Shown in pieces: positions 9,010-13,871 of a stretch of DNA of 53,620 nucleotides (positions are counted from its first letter, which is position 1; every line of letters starts with the position of its first letter). This DNA is from Nitrospira sp. (GTDB lineage: Bacteria; Nitrospirota; Nitrospiria; Nitrospirales; Nitrospiraceae), in contig JABFSU010000075.1 in the NCBI GenBank assembly GCA_013140455.1, positions 1 to 53,620 on the forward strand, in the 5' to 3' direction. The position numbers and the translations under genes were made by a program. The notes beneath the pieces were generated by a model, which saw only the letters and a list, made by a program, of their open reading frames with translations, ran no database searches and was not told the DNA's origin.

Positions 9010-10353
9010 ATGAACCCTACGACAGTTCTTCTGATTTCACGTGACCCTCAGATACGGCATGCCTTTGAGCAGGTCGTCCCTTCCCATACCACCATTCTCA
9101 CCGTAACCGATGTGGCATCGGGAATCAGGGAACTCTCCCGCGCAAACCTCGCGCTCATTCTGTGCGAGGGCAGCCCGGAAACCAGCCAACCCCTGTTGCA
9201 CCACACCAACCTGCATCCAGGCTCCCCCTCCGTCATTCTGATCGGATCACGTAACTCGACGCAAGATGCAGTCGAAGCCATGCGTGCCGGCGCTGCCGAC
9301 TATCTGACCACACCCATCACCATGACTGAGCTTGATACCGCCGTTCGCCGCGCCCTGTCGGCACCGAATCCGACTCTCACTGCCAAGCAACCAACAGGGC
9401 GCTTCGATCTCATTATCAGCGTTTCCCCGCAGATGCAGCTCATCAAACAATTGGCCCGTGAAGTCGCGCTGACGGACGCCACCGTCTTGATCACCGGAGA
9501 AAGCGGCACCGGCAAGGAACTCTTTGCCCAGGCCATTCACTACGCCAGCCCGCGAGCCCTCGGTCCGCTGGTGGCATTGAACTGCGCCGGCATTCCTGAA
9601 CACCTGCTCGAATCAGAGCTCTTCGGCTATCACCAGGGTGCATTCACCGATGCGAAACACACGAAGCTCGGGCGTTTCCAACTCGCCGAAGGCGGCACGC
9701 TGTTCCTCGACGAAATCGGCGAGATGAGCGCCTCGGCACAGGCGAAACTGCTGCGGGTCCTCGAAGATCATCGCGTCGATCCTCTCGGCGACACCCACAG
9801 CCACAAGGTCAATATCCGGGTCATCGCCGCGACCAACGAAGACCTCCCGGCTCATATCAAGACCGGACGATTCCGTCTCGACCTGTACTACCGGCTCAAT
9901 GTGTATCAACTCCGCATTCCCTCGCTCCGGGAACGGATCGACGACATCGAACCAATTCTTCAGCACTTCCTGGCGCAGGCGCGCCGTGACTACGGCTGCC
10001 GCATCACCGGCATCAGCCCGGAGGCCTTAGCCGTACTCCAGCGTCATCATTGGCCGGGCAACGTCCGAGAACTTCACAATGTGGTCGAGTGGCTCACGAT
10101 TACCTGCAAGGCCAATCAGATCGAACCCCAGCACCTCCCGGCCTCCGTCAAGACCGGAAAAGCTCCCGATCAGCCGAGCGGCGAACTCAAGCCGTCCCTG
10201 CTCGCCTTCGGTCTATCGTTTCAAGACATGGAAAAGAAAATGCTGGAGGAAGCCCTCCGCAAATCAGGTGGGAACGTCTCCGAAGCCAGCCGGCTCCTCA
10301 AAATCACCCGCAATACCCTGCGCTATCGCATGGCCAAGTATCACATGTCCTGA
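9010..10353 (+). CDS. NtrC-family sigma-54 activator with degenerate receiver
   Basis: 447 aa with AAGGAG upstream of ATG 9010. It has an N-terminal receiver-like domain (1-115), an AAA+ domain with Walker A GESGTGKE (163-170), the sigma-54 contact loop GAFTDA (210-215) and Walker B GGTLFLDEIGEM, and a C-terminal Fis-type helix-turn-helix (GGNVSEASRLLKITRNTLRYR). The receiver lacks the phospho-acceptor Asp (the strand reads ANLALILCEG) and the conserved Lys (DYLTTP, Thr at 101), so it should not be phosphorylated in the usual way. The ATPase core looks intact. No partner kinase gene is adjacent. Confidence 0.9.
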   Translation: MNPTTVLLISRDPQIRHAFEQVVPSHTTILTVTDVASGIRELSRANLALILCEGSPETSQPLLHHTNLHPGSPSVILIGSRNSTQDAVEAMRAGAADYLTTPITMTELDTAVRRALSAPNPTLTAKQPTGRFDLIISVSPQMQLIKQLAREVALTDATVLITGESGTGKELFAQAIHYASPRALGPLVALNCAGIPEHLLESELFGYHQGAFTDAKHTKLGRFQLAEGGTLFLDEIGEMSASAQAKLLRVLEDHRVDPLGDTHSHKVNIRVIAATNEDLPAHIKTGRFRLDLYYRLNVYQLRIPSLRERIDDIEPILQHFLAQARRDYGCRITGISPEALAVLQRHHWPGNVRELHNVVEWLTITCKANQIEPQHLPASVKTGKAPDQPSGELKPSLLAFGLSFQDMEKKMLEEALRKSGGNVSEASRLLKITRNTLRYRMAKYHMS

Positions 10354-10453
10354 TTCCTCGCCCACTCCCGCCATCACACCCGACACAACTCTATCTTTCA
10401 GTACCCGTCTCAGAGAACGGCCCTATCCTCCGAAATCCTACCTGCTCATTGCG

Positions 10454-10484
10454 ACTGAGTACTGACAGGTCAGACTCAATACTG
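10454..10484. repeat. Imperfect ACTGAGTACTG-type direct/inverted repeat
   Basis: In the 222-bp gap between the NtrC-like gene and the S16 gene the sequence reads ACTGAGTACTGAC, AGGTCAG, ACTCAATACTG. It contains the near-palindrome CTGACAGGTCAG and two copies of an ACT-AGTACTG/ACTCAATACTG word. A similar ACTCAG-rich stretch lies at 22069-22149. It could be an operator or a low-complexity genomic repeat; its function is unknown. Confidence 0.35.
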
Positions 10485-10575
10485 TCCGGCCTTTCACAAG
10501 ACTCAAGCCTCAGACTGGAGCGCCGATAGGTAAGACACGCCATCTAACCCGCCGCAGACTCCTGAAAGGCGTCAT

Positions 10576-11259
10576 ATGTCAAACAATCGACGTCAATCCA
10601 GGATTGATCTCCCTGCGTGTCGTGCAATGATCCCAATATTCCTCCTGATTATGTCGCTCATCGGCACGCTCTCTGCCACTCCCGCTACCGCAGCCCCACG
10701 CGAACAGATGATTCCAGTCTTAAGTCATGTGGGGGAAGCAAGCGCACGAGGGACGGTGGGGTATGTGCACATCACGTTCGACCGGCGGTCGGACGCGTCG
10801 GGTTTAGCTATCCAATTTAATACCGCGCCGGGACGCTTTTCTCGTTCAGCCCAGGCCTCCATCGGAGAGGCCATTCGCCGCACCGCCCACTCGCTAAAAC
10901 TCTCGACTGATTCCTGGACGGTCGTGCTGACTGTTCCCTATTCGGATATTGTGGTCTCCGGTGGCCACTTGTCTGGAATGGTGGGCCTAAGTGTTGCCGC
11001 AATGGCAACAGGACGCACGATAGACACGGGACTCCTCGTGACAGGCAGGATTACTCAAGAAGGTCAGATTGGACCAGTGGGATCTGCTCCCCTACAGGTG
11101 CCCGCGCCAGGACGAGCACGGTTGCGGCGGGTCGTCGTCTCAAAAGAACAGCCCCTCGCCGAACGCGACCAACCGGCGCGTGATCTTATACAGGTCACCC
11201 CCGTTAGTTCTGTCACCCAAGCGTTTCAAGAACTCACTGGTGAAGCACCCAAGCCCTAA
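10576..11259 (+). CDS. Secreted Lon-type (S16-like) domain protein, lysine lost
   Basis: 227 aa with GAAAGG upstream of ATG 10576. The hydrophobic N-terminal segment (IPIFLLIMSLIGTLSATPATAA, about 19-40) looks like a signal peptide or anchor. The rest resembles the Lon C-terminal proteolytic fold: a strand with VVLTVPYSDIVVSGG, then HLSGMVGLSVAAMATGR with Ser133 at the nucleophile position, then TGLLVTGRITQEGQIGPVG. The stretch that follows in true Lon proteases (GGLKEK) reads GSAPLQ here, so the dyad Lys is missing. There is no AAA+ domain. Catalysis is doubtful, and a binding role is possible. Confidence 0.6.
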   Translation: MSNNRRQSRIDLPACRAMIPIFLLIMSLIGTLSATPATAAPREQMIPVLSHVGEASARGTVGYVHITFDRRSDASGLAIQFNTAPGRFSRSAQASIGEAIRRTAHSLKLSTDSWTVVLTVPYSDIVVSGGHLSGMVGLSVAAMATGRTIDTGLLVTGRITQEGQIGPVGSAPLQVPAPGRARLRRVVVSKEQPLAERDQPARDLIQVTPVSSVTQAFQELTGEAPKP

Positions 11260-11286
11260 GAGTGATTCCCCATTTCACCTGTCCCT

Positions 11287-13701
11287 CTATCGAAGCGTGG
11301 CGATCGACACCCCATCTCCCCCTTCAGCCCGATCACCCGGACGGAACTCTGCAACATAGGGTGACTCTGACAGATACTTACGTAATGCGGATTTCAAACG
11401 TCCTGTCCCATGTCCATGAATGATGCGCAGAAGCGGCGCGCCCTCCAGCGTCGCCCGATCCAACGCGGCAATCACCAGATCGAGCGCTTCGTCGGCGGCC
11501 TGTCCCCGCACATCGACCACCGTCTGCTCGTCTAGACCCAGCCCGCCGCCGGTTGAAAACTTGCGCGGAGTTGATGTGGACGCGGGCGACAGCGGTGTTG
11601 GCGCAGCCGCTCCGGATGCGACGCCAATGAGATTCGCCACCGTGGCCAGCACTTCACCCTCCCCCACTTTCACGCGAACACGCTTCTTTCCCTGGGGGTC
11701 TTCGAGCAGACTGCCGGTCATACCCAACGCGGCGATTTCCACTTGATCACCGATCCGAAGATGCTCGACCGGAATCGGTTCGCCGGCAGGCAGCAGTTCT
11801 TGCTTGGTCTGGATTTCTAATTCGCTGAGACGTTGCGTCGTCTCTTTTGCCTTGATGAGTTTCTGCTCGCGCTTGAGAGCATCGACCGTCGCCTGCACCT
11901 CCACCCGTGCCCGTTGAAACTGCTCGCCAAGTTTTTTCTTCAATCCCTTGCGCGCTTCCAGTTCTGCCTCTTCCAAGCGTGTCTGCAACGCCTTCGCTTC
12001 AACAGCGGCCCGTTCGGCCTCGGCCCTCGCCTGTGCCGCCCGTTCCACATCATCGGCTAACTGCCGCTGTTTCTGCTGGAGATCGACCATGAGATCTTCC
12101 AAGCGCCGGTCATCCTTAGGCAAGCGCTGACGTGCATCGTCCAAAATCTTCTCATCCATCCCCAGACGGCCGGCTATCTCCAATGCCGACGAGCCTCCGG
12201 GCACGCCGAGAAACAGCCGGTACGTGGGCGCCAGACGCGTCACGTCAAACTCAACGCTGGCATTAGCAAACCCCGGCATCGTCTGAGCCAATTCTTTCAA
12301 CGGTCCATAATGGGTCGTCACCACGACCTTCATGTTCAGCGACGCCAGATGGCACAACAGCGCTTCGGCCAGCGCCGCCCCTTCCTGCGGATCCGTCGAC
12401 GTCACCGGTTCGTCAAGCAATACCAGCGACTGTCCGATATCCGCCCCGCTGCTCACCGAGCGAGCCGACTCTGCGAGTAACTGCACCATCTGCGACATGT
12501 GGGCGGAGAAACTCGAAAGGTCGCGGCTCAGATCCTGCGCATCGCCGATGTCGGCGTAGAGCTCAGGGAAAATCGCCATCTCCGACTCAGGAGCACAGGG
12601 GAGATGCAAGCCCGCCCGCACCATCAGCGAGAACAGTCCGACAATCTTCAGTGTGACCGTTTTACCGCCGGTATTGGGACCGGAAATGACTAGGACGCGA
12701 ATCGACTCATCGAGCAGAATATCGTTCGCCACGACATCATCTTTCGCCAACATCAACAACGGATGACGCGCCTGCTTCAGCATGACACGTCCCTGTTCAT
12801 TCAGCGTCACGGGATTGGCCTTGAGCCGCCGACTGAGCGCCGCCTTCGCCTGCACGGAATCCAGCTCCGCCAGCACGTCCATCCCGGCCTGCAATGCGTC
12901 CGCCTGCCCGGCAACCAGGAGCGTAAGTTCACGCAGGATTCGCCGCACTTCCCGCTCGATTTCAAGATCGGCGACCTTGATCGAGTTGTTCAATTCCACC
13001 AGTTCGCGTGGTTCCAGAAATACCGTCGCGCCGCTGGCCGACACATCGTGCACAATCCCCGGCATACGCCCTCGCATGTCCGCCTTCACCGGCAGCACAT
13101 AGCGGCCTTCCCGCTGCGCGAAATACGATTCCTGAAGAACGTCCTCATATCGACTGGAGTGCAGAATCCGATCCAGCTGCTCACGCATACGCTGTTTCAG
13201 CTCCTGCGCCGCGTGTGTGAGGCGTCGCAACTCCGGCGTGGCCGATTCTTTGATCGCCCCATCGGGCTGAATCGCGGCATCGAGCGCCCGCGTAATATTC
13301 TGAAGCTCCCGAGTCGACTGGAGGCCATCCGCCACAGCCACCACCATCGGAGCTTCATGCGCATGGCGGGCGCAAAAGCGCGCGACCTCGTCCATCCGCG
13401 TCAAAACGAGTCCGCAGTCCCGCAACTCCAGCGCCTCCAGCACGCCCCCCTTGCTGGCCCGTTCGACTAACTCGCGCGTATCCGGAAACGACAACACCGG
13501 GGCCGGATCGTTCCCATCGCTCAGGCGCAACCACTCCGTCGTCTCCTGCTGACGCCTCACCAACATCTCCAGATCGTTGTCCAGGGCCATCCCCCGGCAA
13601 CGTGCAGCCCCCAGCACGGATTGAGCTCCTCGCGCCAAAGACTCAAGGACCTTCGGCCACTCCAACGCCTGCGCGGCTTTCTCTGACAGCGAATCCACCA
13701 T
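11287..13701 (-). CDS. mutS2: MutS2 family ATPase/endonuclease
   Basis: 804 aa from ATG 13701, preceded by GAGGTGGGG. The core/lever region is followed by the ABC-type ATPase with Walker A SGPNTGGKT (340-348), Walker B SLVLLDEP and the switch VVVTTHYG, then a long coiled coil (about 500-620), a KOW-like segment (IRVGDQ-type, here LRIGDQVEIAALG) and a C-terminal Smr domain with VDVRGQ and IIHGHGTGRL. The family acts in suppression of recombination and, in Firmicutes, in rescue of collided ribosomes. It is convergent with the S16 gene, with only 27 nt between stops. Confidence 0.95.
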   Translation of the reverse strand: MVDSLSEKAAQALEWPKVLESLARGAQSVLGAARCRGMALDNDLEMLVRRQQETTEWLRLSDGNDPAPVLSFPDTRELVERASKGGVLEALELRDCGLVLTRMDEVARFCARHAHEAPMVVAVADGLQSTRELQNITRALDAAIQPDGAIKESATPELRRLTHAAQELKQRMREQLDRILHSSRYEDVLQESYFAQREGRYVLPVKADMRGRMPGIVHDVSASGATVFLEPRELVELNNSIKVADLEIEREVRRILRELTLLVAGQADALQAGMDVLAELDSVQAKAALSRRLKANPVTLNEQGRVMLKQARHPLLMLAKDDVVANDILLDESIRVLVISGPNTGGKTVTLKIVGLFSLMVRAGLHLPCAPESEMAIFPELYADIGDAQDLSRDLSSFSAHMSQMVQLLAESARSVSSGADIGQSLVLLDEPVTSTDPQEGAALAEALLCHLASLNMKVVVTTHYGPLKELAQTMPGFANASVEFDVTRLAPTYRLFLGVPGGSSALEIAGRLGMDEKILDDARQRLPKDDRRLEDLMVDLQQKQRQLADDVERAAQARAEAERAAVEAKALQTRLEEAELEARKGLKKKLGEQFQRARVEVQATVDALKREQKLIKAKETTQRLSELEIQTKQELLPAGEPIPVEHLRIGDQVEIAALGMTGSLLEDPQGKKRVRVKVGEGEVLATVANLIGVASGAAAPTPLSPASTSTPRKFSTGGGLGLDEQTVVDVRGQAADEALDLVIAALDRATLEGAPLLRIIHGHGTGRLKSALRKYLSESPYVAEFRPGDRAEGGDGVSIATLR

Positions 13702-13871
13702 CCCCACCTCGCCTCCCAAACATCAATCTTTCCAGTCGGAACTCTAGCGAAGAGAGATCCGGAGAAGCAACCCGACTTGCACAGCGCACCCCCTTGTTTC
13801 TACTGAGGTCGATTCTCGAAAAAGCGCCTCAATTACTGGGGTTTCTTCACGTATTCCTACCTTCGTATAGC

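Follow-up and report, generated by a model that had tools for sequence, protein, structure and literature searches.

A probably exported single-domain Lon-fold protein of Nitrospira in which both residues of the catalytic dyad are replaced

Introduction

Which task could a Lon proteolytic domain perform in Nitrospira, a genus of key nitrite oxidisers, when it stands alone in its chain, begins like an exported protein and seems to have lost the residues that cut? The question is raised by a gene in the window, the whole 53,620-nucleotide stretch of Nitrospira sp. DNA analysed here, whose preliminary description was of a secreted Lon/S16-type domain with a dyad serine, Ser133, but no dyad lysine.

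Lon-like proteases without ATPase activity have been described as LonC (PMC3391209), and YlbL of B. subtilis is reported to be a membrane Lon-PDZ protease without AAA+ that likely lies outside the cell (PMC6051672). In one published account, single-domain Lon_C proteins make up 39 of 117 and inactive S16 homologues 2 of 117 (PMC2605481). The helicase RadA offers a known case of a Lon domain without the dyad, which acts there as a ring scaffold (PMC5512693). In titles and abstract openings, with subscription papers little covered, we found no description either of an exported stand-alone Lon domain lacking the dyad or of a secreted Lon-like family of Nitrospirota.

Results

A predicted Lon fold behind a signal-like start

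The gene and its N-terminal region are as follows.

10576..11259, + strand: gene of a probably secreted, putative Lon_C-fold pseudoprotease of 227 aa (open reading frame, Pfam Lon_C match, AlphaFold2 model, orthologues in three other genomes)
10576..10695, + strand: signal-peptide-like region, residues 1-40 (hydrophobic stretch; variable at 17 of 40 positions in the four orthologues)

The reading frame opens with ATG and contains zero internal stops. Three further assemblies carry the same frame together with both of the replacements described below, so neither the frame nor the replacements arose by chance, and the agreement of the four assemblies rules out an assembly or frameshift artefact. 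The chain begins with a basic N-terminus, a single hydrophobic stretch and an Ala-x-Ala-like site ahead of the residues PREQ, and its best Kyte-Doolittle window reaches 2.42 at residue 18, against 1.45 at best elsewhere. These features uphold the signal-like start that had been read from the sequence, and the composition suggests that the protein is probably exported to the periplasm. All 24 of the 24 A1 members reach a Kyte-Doolittle value of at least 1.6 within their first 80 residues, the rest of the chain coming close in several of them and being the more hydrophobic part in one (L035, 1.86 versus 1.63 in the first 80 residues).

The resemblance to Lon_C is weak by sequence. Pfam Lon_C (PF05362) barely passed its cut-off of 21.1 bits with the window protein (21.2 bits, E = 2.4e-4), the three orthologues G029, G032 and G065 all scored below it (20.2, 19.3 and 17.7 bits), and two NCBIfam Lon models, with E values of 0.001 and 0.0024, fell far below the model cut-offs; the best PDB match by sequence was 1z0b_A (E = 3.3e-4), of the A. 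fulgidus Lon series (cf. 1z0e). By predicted fold, the resemblance is clear. An AlphaFold2 model built on a shallow alignment of 54 family sequences had a mean pLDDT of 83.5 and a pTM of 0.77 and was aligned to E. coli Lon (3wu6_A) by VIA-align 2 with a Z score of 18.8 and an r.m.s.d. of 2.5 Å over 174 residues, and Foldseek matched it to Lon proteolytic domains with an E value of 3.8e-10. The Lon-like domains of RadA, ComM and BrxL also matched the model, with best Z scores of 17.1, 16.4 and 16.1, respectively, the ComM structure 8rxs scoring 16.3. Because both methods match the model to Lon proteolytic domains, the S16-type fold proposed earlier is supported. A Pfam search of the 227 residues at E values up to 1 revealed neither an AAA+ nor any other second domain, in agreement with the earlier statement that the protein has no AAA+ motor.

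Neither catalytic position holds a catalytic residue

Three codons are needed to place the dyad.

10966..10968, + strand: His131 codon, CAC, at the catalytic-Ser position (spacing and alignment to true Lons and 99 Ser/Lys relatives)
10972..10974, + strand: Ser133 codon, off the nucleophile column (invariant in A2 beside the real Ser)
11095..11097, + strand: Gln174 codon, CAG, at the dyad-Lys position (spacing and family alignment)

The segments HLSGMVG, TGRITQEGQIGPVG and GSAPLQ, on which the first reading relied, are all present in the protein, but Ser133 proved not to be the dyad serine. A true full-length Lon encoded in the same genome served as reference: counted from the Thr of its TG strand, the nucleophile is 25 residues upstream and the dyad Lys 18 residues downstream. 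In the window protein the same count ends on His131 and Gln174, and in N. moscoviensis on Ser and Lys. Applied without gaps to the 54 rows of alignment A2 (the window protein plus 53 of 60 listed frames), the rule returned Ser/Lys in 51 rows and His/Gln in 3, namely the window protein and two orthologues. A profile comparison with the Lon domains of these genomes ran ungapped through both sites (hhalign probability 93.0, E = 3.4e-7). Of the 106 frames that cover the nucleophile column, 102 show Ser there and the other 4 show His, the codon being CAC in all four His/Gln orthologues and AGT (Ser) in N. moscoviensis.

The reported motifs are PKDGPSA in LonA and [E/D]GDSA[S/T] in LonB (PMC2605481). 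Most members of clade I (see below) read GDSLSAM or GESLSAM, in both of which the nucleophile is the earlier Ser, and the later one, two residues on, corresponds to Ser133. This second position is not catalytic, because L068 has Gly and L037 has Thr there while both keep an intact dyad. Compared with an active S16 peptidase, the window protein has His131 for the Ser of DGPS/GDS and Gln174 for the second K of GGLKEK, as expected from the earlier report of a missing dyad Lys, and its only lysines (108, 190 and 226) all lie off the dyad column, so that no conserved Lys elsewhere takes that position. Since the nucleophile column is occupied by His131, the protein has neither Ser nor Lys, rather than Ser without Lys. 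Aligned in this way, both catalytic residues are replaced, and the loss of the dyad predicts a protein without peptidase activity. We also asked whether the residue preceding the nucleophile counts as another loss, and rejected the idea: it is Gly in three of the four His/Gln proteins and Glu in one, and it varies in the Ser-Lys relatives too.

The replacement of Lys is accompanied by a change in predicted structure.

11086..11118, + strand: former Lys-helix segment APLQVPAPGRA, with no helix predicted (two prolines absent from N. moscoviensis)

Residues 171-180 (APLQVPAPGR) form no helix in the model and have a mean pLDDT of 63, a low value that is not proof of disorder, whereas the model built from the same family for the N. 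moscoviensis orthologue (mean pLDDT 88.1) places its Lys in a helix, 162-171, with blocks of mean pLDDT 95 and 96. The helix after the nucleophile is retained in the window model, spanning residues 130-144 and beginning beside His131.

A shifted but active S16 site, with Ser133 as nucleophile and another Lys as base, could draw on the position of Ser133 only two residues from the nucleophile column and on the conservation of Lys108 and Lys190 in the four orthologues. Against it, the column is Ser in every other frame that has it and His in just these four, the Lys helix is not predicted, and the Ser133 position tolerates Gly and Thr in proteins with intact dyads, making a shifted site scarcely credible.

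The dyad was lost in one clade of a Ser-Lys family

Matches to the A1 profile at E values up to 1e-4, with duplicates removed and all loci then collected, gave 109 distinct related frames, comprising 99 with Ser/Lys, 4 with His/Gln and 6 that are incomplete or out of frame; one family alignment used 46 matches minus three (two full-length Lons and one duplicate). The idea of a Ser conserved without Lys is wrong, the catalytic-serine position being His131. With both residues in 99 of the 109 frames and both replaced only in the four-member clade, the suggestion that the protein uses another base is unsupported. The six frames set aside lack both columns (L046 twice, L142) or the Lys column (L136, L143), the sixth being a 111-aa frame of L142 that reads Ser/Glu where the family resemblance is already gone and that was taken as out of frame. 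In the tree of the remaining 103 frames, clade I accounts for 65 of the 99 Ser/Lys frames and clade II for 28, while 6 are full-length Lons or further S16 proteins. Clade I loci numbered 62 in a scan of genome contigs, nearly all labelled Nitrospirota, Nitrospira or similar, with three labelled Nitrospinota and one Nitrosomonas, which recur in the tree.

The His/Gln frames are those of the window, G032, G065 and G029, the three orthologues being 89-92% identical to the window protein. Their distribution is patchy, at 4 of 79 Nitrospira genomes, a set in which 49 genomes have a completeness of 90% or more and a contamination of 5% or less. They form one clade (support 100/100, stem length 1.62 changes per column), joined with support of 98/94 by L048 of N. 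moscoviensis and the paralogue of L048, L068; the pairing of L048 with L068 may be a long-branch effect.

The N. moscoviensis NSP M-1 protein (L048/L085) shares with the window protein its locus, gene order, signal-like N-terminus and single Lon_C domain, at an alignment-dependent identity of 45-52%, but it retains the Ser of GDS, the Lys of GSIPLK and a confidently predicted Lys helix, to which His131, Gln174 and a segment without predicted helix correspond in the window protein. Because this positional orthologue has Ser and Lys intact, the loss of the dyad is derived, and one change on the sequence tree explains it. Judged by the tree and by synteny with N. moscoviensis, the window protein is by descent and position a clade I Lon-like protein of Nitrospirota.

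Two further frames were seen in passing. L046 (G021:C44) appears to be a broken clade I remnant, with a recognisable N-terminal part after which the similarity fades, and G000:C103:66004-66342 belongs to another Lon_C-bearing frame of ~300 aa, similar-scoring frames of 302-326 aa being present in five other genomes.

A conserved gene order with an inconstant Lon-like gene

Two neighbours served as locus markers.

9010..10353, + strand: sigma-54-type activator with a degenerate receiver, upstream (library match, synteny)
11287..13719, - strand: mutS2, convergent downstream neighbour (TIGR01069, 739.5 bits)

The gene order is trxB, thiI, a START-like gene, queG, the sigma-54 activator, the Lon-like gene, mutS2, gap, pgk and tpi, the names of the activator, the Lon-like domain and mutS2 being library-tested and the others read from translations. 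This ten-gene order recurs in N. moscoviensis and in the other three genomes with the His/Gln form. The activator was found in 73 of 79 Nitrospira genomes (E up to 1e-100). Among the 30 activator loci fetched, the Lon-like gene is present in 4, and it also lies beside the activator in N. moscoviensis; in 10, the activator is followed by mutS2 at a distance of 23-91 bp, with no intervening gene, and in the other 16 neither a Lon match nor mutS2 was found in the stretch covered. An operon or functional link with the activator is not supported, given an activator in nearly all genomes and a Lon-like neighbour in so few of its loci; the two genes are 222 bp apart. A sigma-70-type scan of 10200-11400 returned no sigma-70-like promoter, and the gene-order table showed no genomic neighbour shared across the whole Lon-like family. 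The Lon-like gene may be ancestral at this locus with repeated loss, or it may be mobile between species.

In 27 of the 30 loci, among them that of the window, the phospho-acceptor column of the activator receiver holds Glu; two other loci have Asp there and one has Gln. The degenerate receiver sequence, together with the near-universal presence of the gene in the genus, suggests a regulator that is independent of phosphorylation.

In part of clade I, a Ser-Lys Lon-like gene is followed by a gene for protein-L-isoaspartate methyltransferase, often with an HbpS-like gene too.

L101 4884-7163: clade I Lon-like gene with protein-L-isoaspartate methyltransferase (Pfam)
L105 4950-6317: Lon-like domain and methyltransferase in one 455-aa frame (fused open reading frame)

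Clustering resolved 12 distinct loci with such neighbours, plus one fusion, with Pfam run on L101 only. The window protein gene has no downstream methyltransferase neighbour. Such linkage may point to a family function in repairing or clearing damaged envelope proteins.

Constraint persists after the loss of the dyad

Over the six pairs of the four orthologues, NG86 estimates of dN/dS were 0.15-0.19 for the mature protein, 0.62-1.51 for the signal region and 0.21-0.39 for the whole protein. Conservation is highest in residues 121-190 (mean dN 0.014, dS 0.186, 4 of 70 positions variable among the four), which may reflect a buried core. For comparison, four Ser-Lys pairs, three of clade I and one of clade II, gave 0.165, 0.301, 0.124 and 0.042 after column 45, and the neighbouring activator, mutS2 and queG gave 0.07-0.12 at dS of 0.32-0.73. 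The mature window protein is thus constrained within the range of its relatives, and less than the three neighbours. From these ratios, purifying selection on the His/Gln protein is continuing since the loss of the dyad, and a pseudogene was judged unlikely.

Gene decay, in which drift abolished catalysis and the gene is now disappearing, would agree with its absence from most of the genus, with the ten loci that have no gene between the activator and mutS2, with a whole-protein dN/dS above that of the three neighbours and with the apparent clade I remnant elsewhere (L046). However, the four frames are intact at dS of 0.15-0.21, their mature dN/dS falls within the range of the Ser-Lys pairs, and the signal region shows how weak constraint looks within the same gene, so we regard decay as improbable.

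The dS of the gene among the four genomes lies below that of the neighbours, and its GC3 is 0.56, compared with 0.65-0.71 in the neighbours, two features of sequence that are consistent with possible exchange of the gene between species. The gene may thus be a horizontal cassette, but N. moscoviensis has an orthologue in the same gap.

Discussion

Because the sequence is still conserved despite the replacement of both cutting residues, the protein probably binds or regulates other proteins. Our favoured reading, held with moderate confidence, is that it is a single-domain, probably exported, Lon-fold pseudoprotease that serves in binding, as a scaffold or in regulation. The preliminary description had already offered a non-catalytic domain, for binding or as a scaffold, as one possibility, and as a proposal it gains support from the double replacement and the continued constraint.

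In this proposal, an ancestor with the Ser-Lys pair would have lost catalysis once, Ser becoming His131 and Lys becoming Gln174, with two extra prolines appearing in the Lys-helix segment. The protein would be delivered to the periplasm, where the remodelled cleft would bind a peptide or protein without cutting it; by analogy with other Lon_C domains, it would most likely form an oligomeric ring and act as a scaffold or regulatory subunit. All four genomes also encode a Ser-Lys Lon-like paralogue, which likewise has a signal-like start and is one candidate for a partner. In a more specific and more tentative form, the former cleft, through the changes of Ser to His and Lys to Gln and the loss of the Lys helix, may have been rebuilt into a conserved binding site through which the protein controls a Lon-like protease of the periplasm or another envelope process, an idea that we consider doubtful.

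The candidate partner belongs to clade II (L002 in the window genome), and the dead domain might mix with it, activate it or restrain it. This paralogue occurs in 24 of 79 Nitrospira genomes, including 4 of the 4 His/Gln genomes versus 20 of the 75 others, and there are reported parallels in MamO, which activates MamE (PMC4794232), and in the chloroplast Clp core, which holds non-catalytic R subunits (PMC6508832). Nevertheless, L002 and the window protein are 25% identical and lie on different contigs, and the closest orthologues of the paralogue (88% or more) are found in six genomes, two of which, G093 and G095, carry no His/Gln gene, so the co-occurrence is confounded by shared descent. Regulation of this particular paralogue therefore seems to us rather unlikely.

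The site might alternatively have been rebuilt for other chemistry, with His131 acting together with Ser133, or forming a metal site with other histidines. His131 and Ser133 are identical in the four orthologues, conservation within the protein peaks in the block around them, and MamO is reported to bind metal through a di-histidine motif (PMC4794232). Yet Ser133 is equally conserved beside the Ser-Lys site in relatives and so needs no new role, and we consider new chemistry quite improbable.

Known systems provide precedents for the binding, scaffold or regulatory role that we favour. The window protein has its fold in common with LonA and LonB (E. coli Lon 1rr9/3wu6, A. fulgidus Lon 1z0e), but unlike them it has neither the Ser-Lys dyad nor an AAA+ ATPase in the same chain and is probably exported. 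The Lon-like domains of RadA (5lkm) and ComM (8rxs) likewise share the Lon_C fold; these two helicases are reported to share the Lon domain as a hexamerisation module (PMC11612176), and in RadA both dyad residues are described as replaced, Ser by Ala and Lys by Arg, in a domain that provides a stable hexamer scaffold (PMC5512693), much as His131 and Gln174 replace them here. By contrast, the RadA and ComM domains are parts of DNA helicases with an ATPase, whereas the window domain stands alone behind a signal-like start. YlbL differs in having a transmembrane segment, a PDZ domain and a putative Ser234/Lys279 dyad, as described (PMC6051672). MamO resembles the window protein in combining a protease fold, here that of a serine protease, with a degenerate active site; it is reported to activate a partner protease and to bind metal, although the account of it does not present it as Lon-type (PMC4794232). 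By analogy with RadA and MamO, a scaffold or regulatory role for the window protein is plausible.

The window clade and the N. moscoviensis gene, occupying the same locus without and with the dyad, form a natural pair for asking what becomes of the Lon fold after cutting stops. If the cleft has indeed been rebuilt as a control site, the protein would be a Lon-type pseudoprotease acting outside the cytoplasm, with its Ser-Lys counterpart still present at the same locus in another species.
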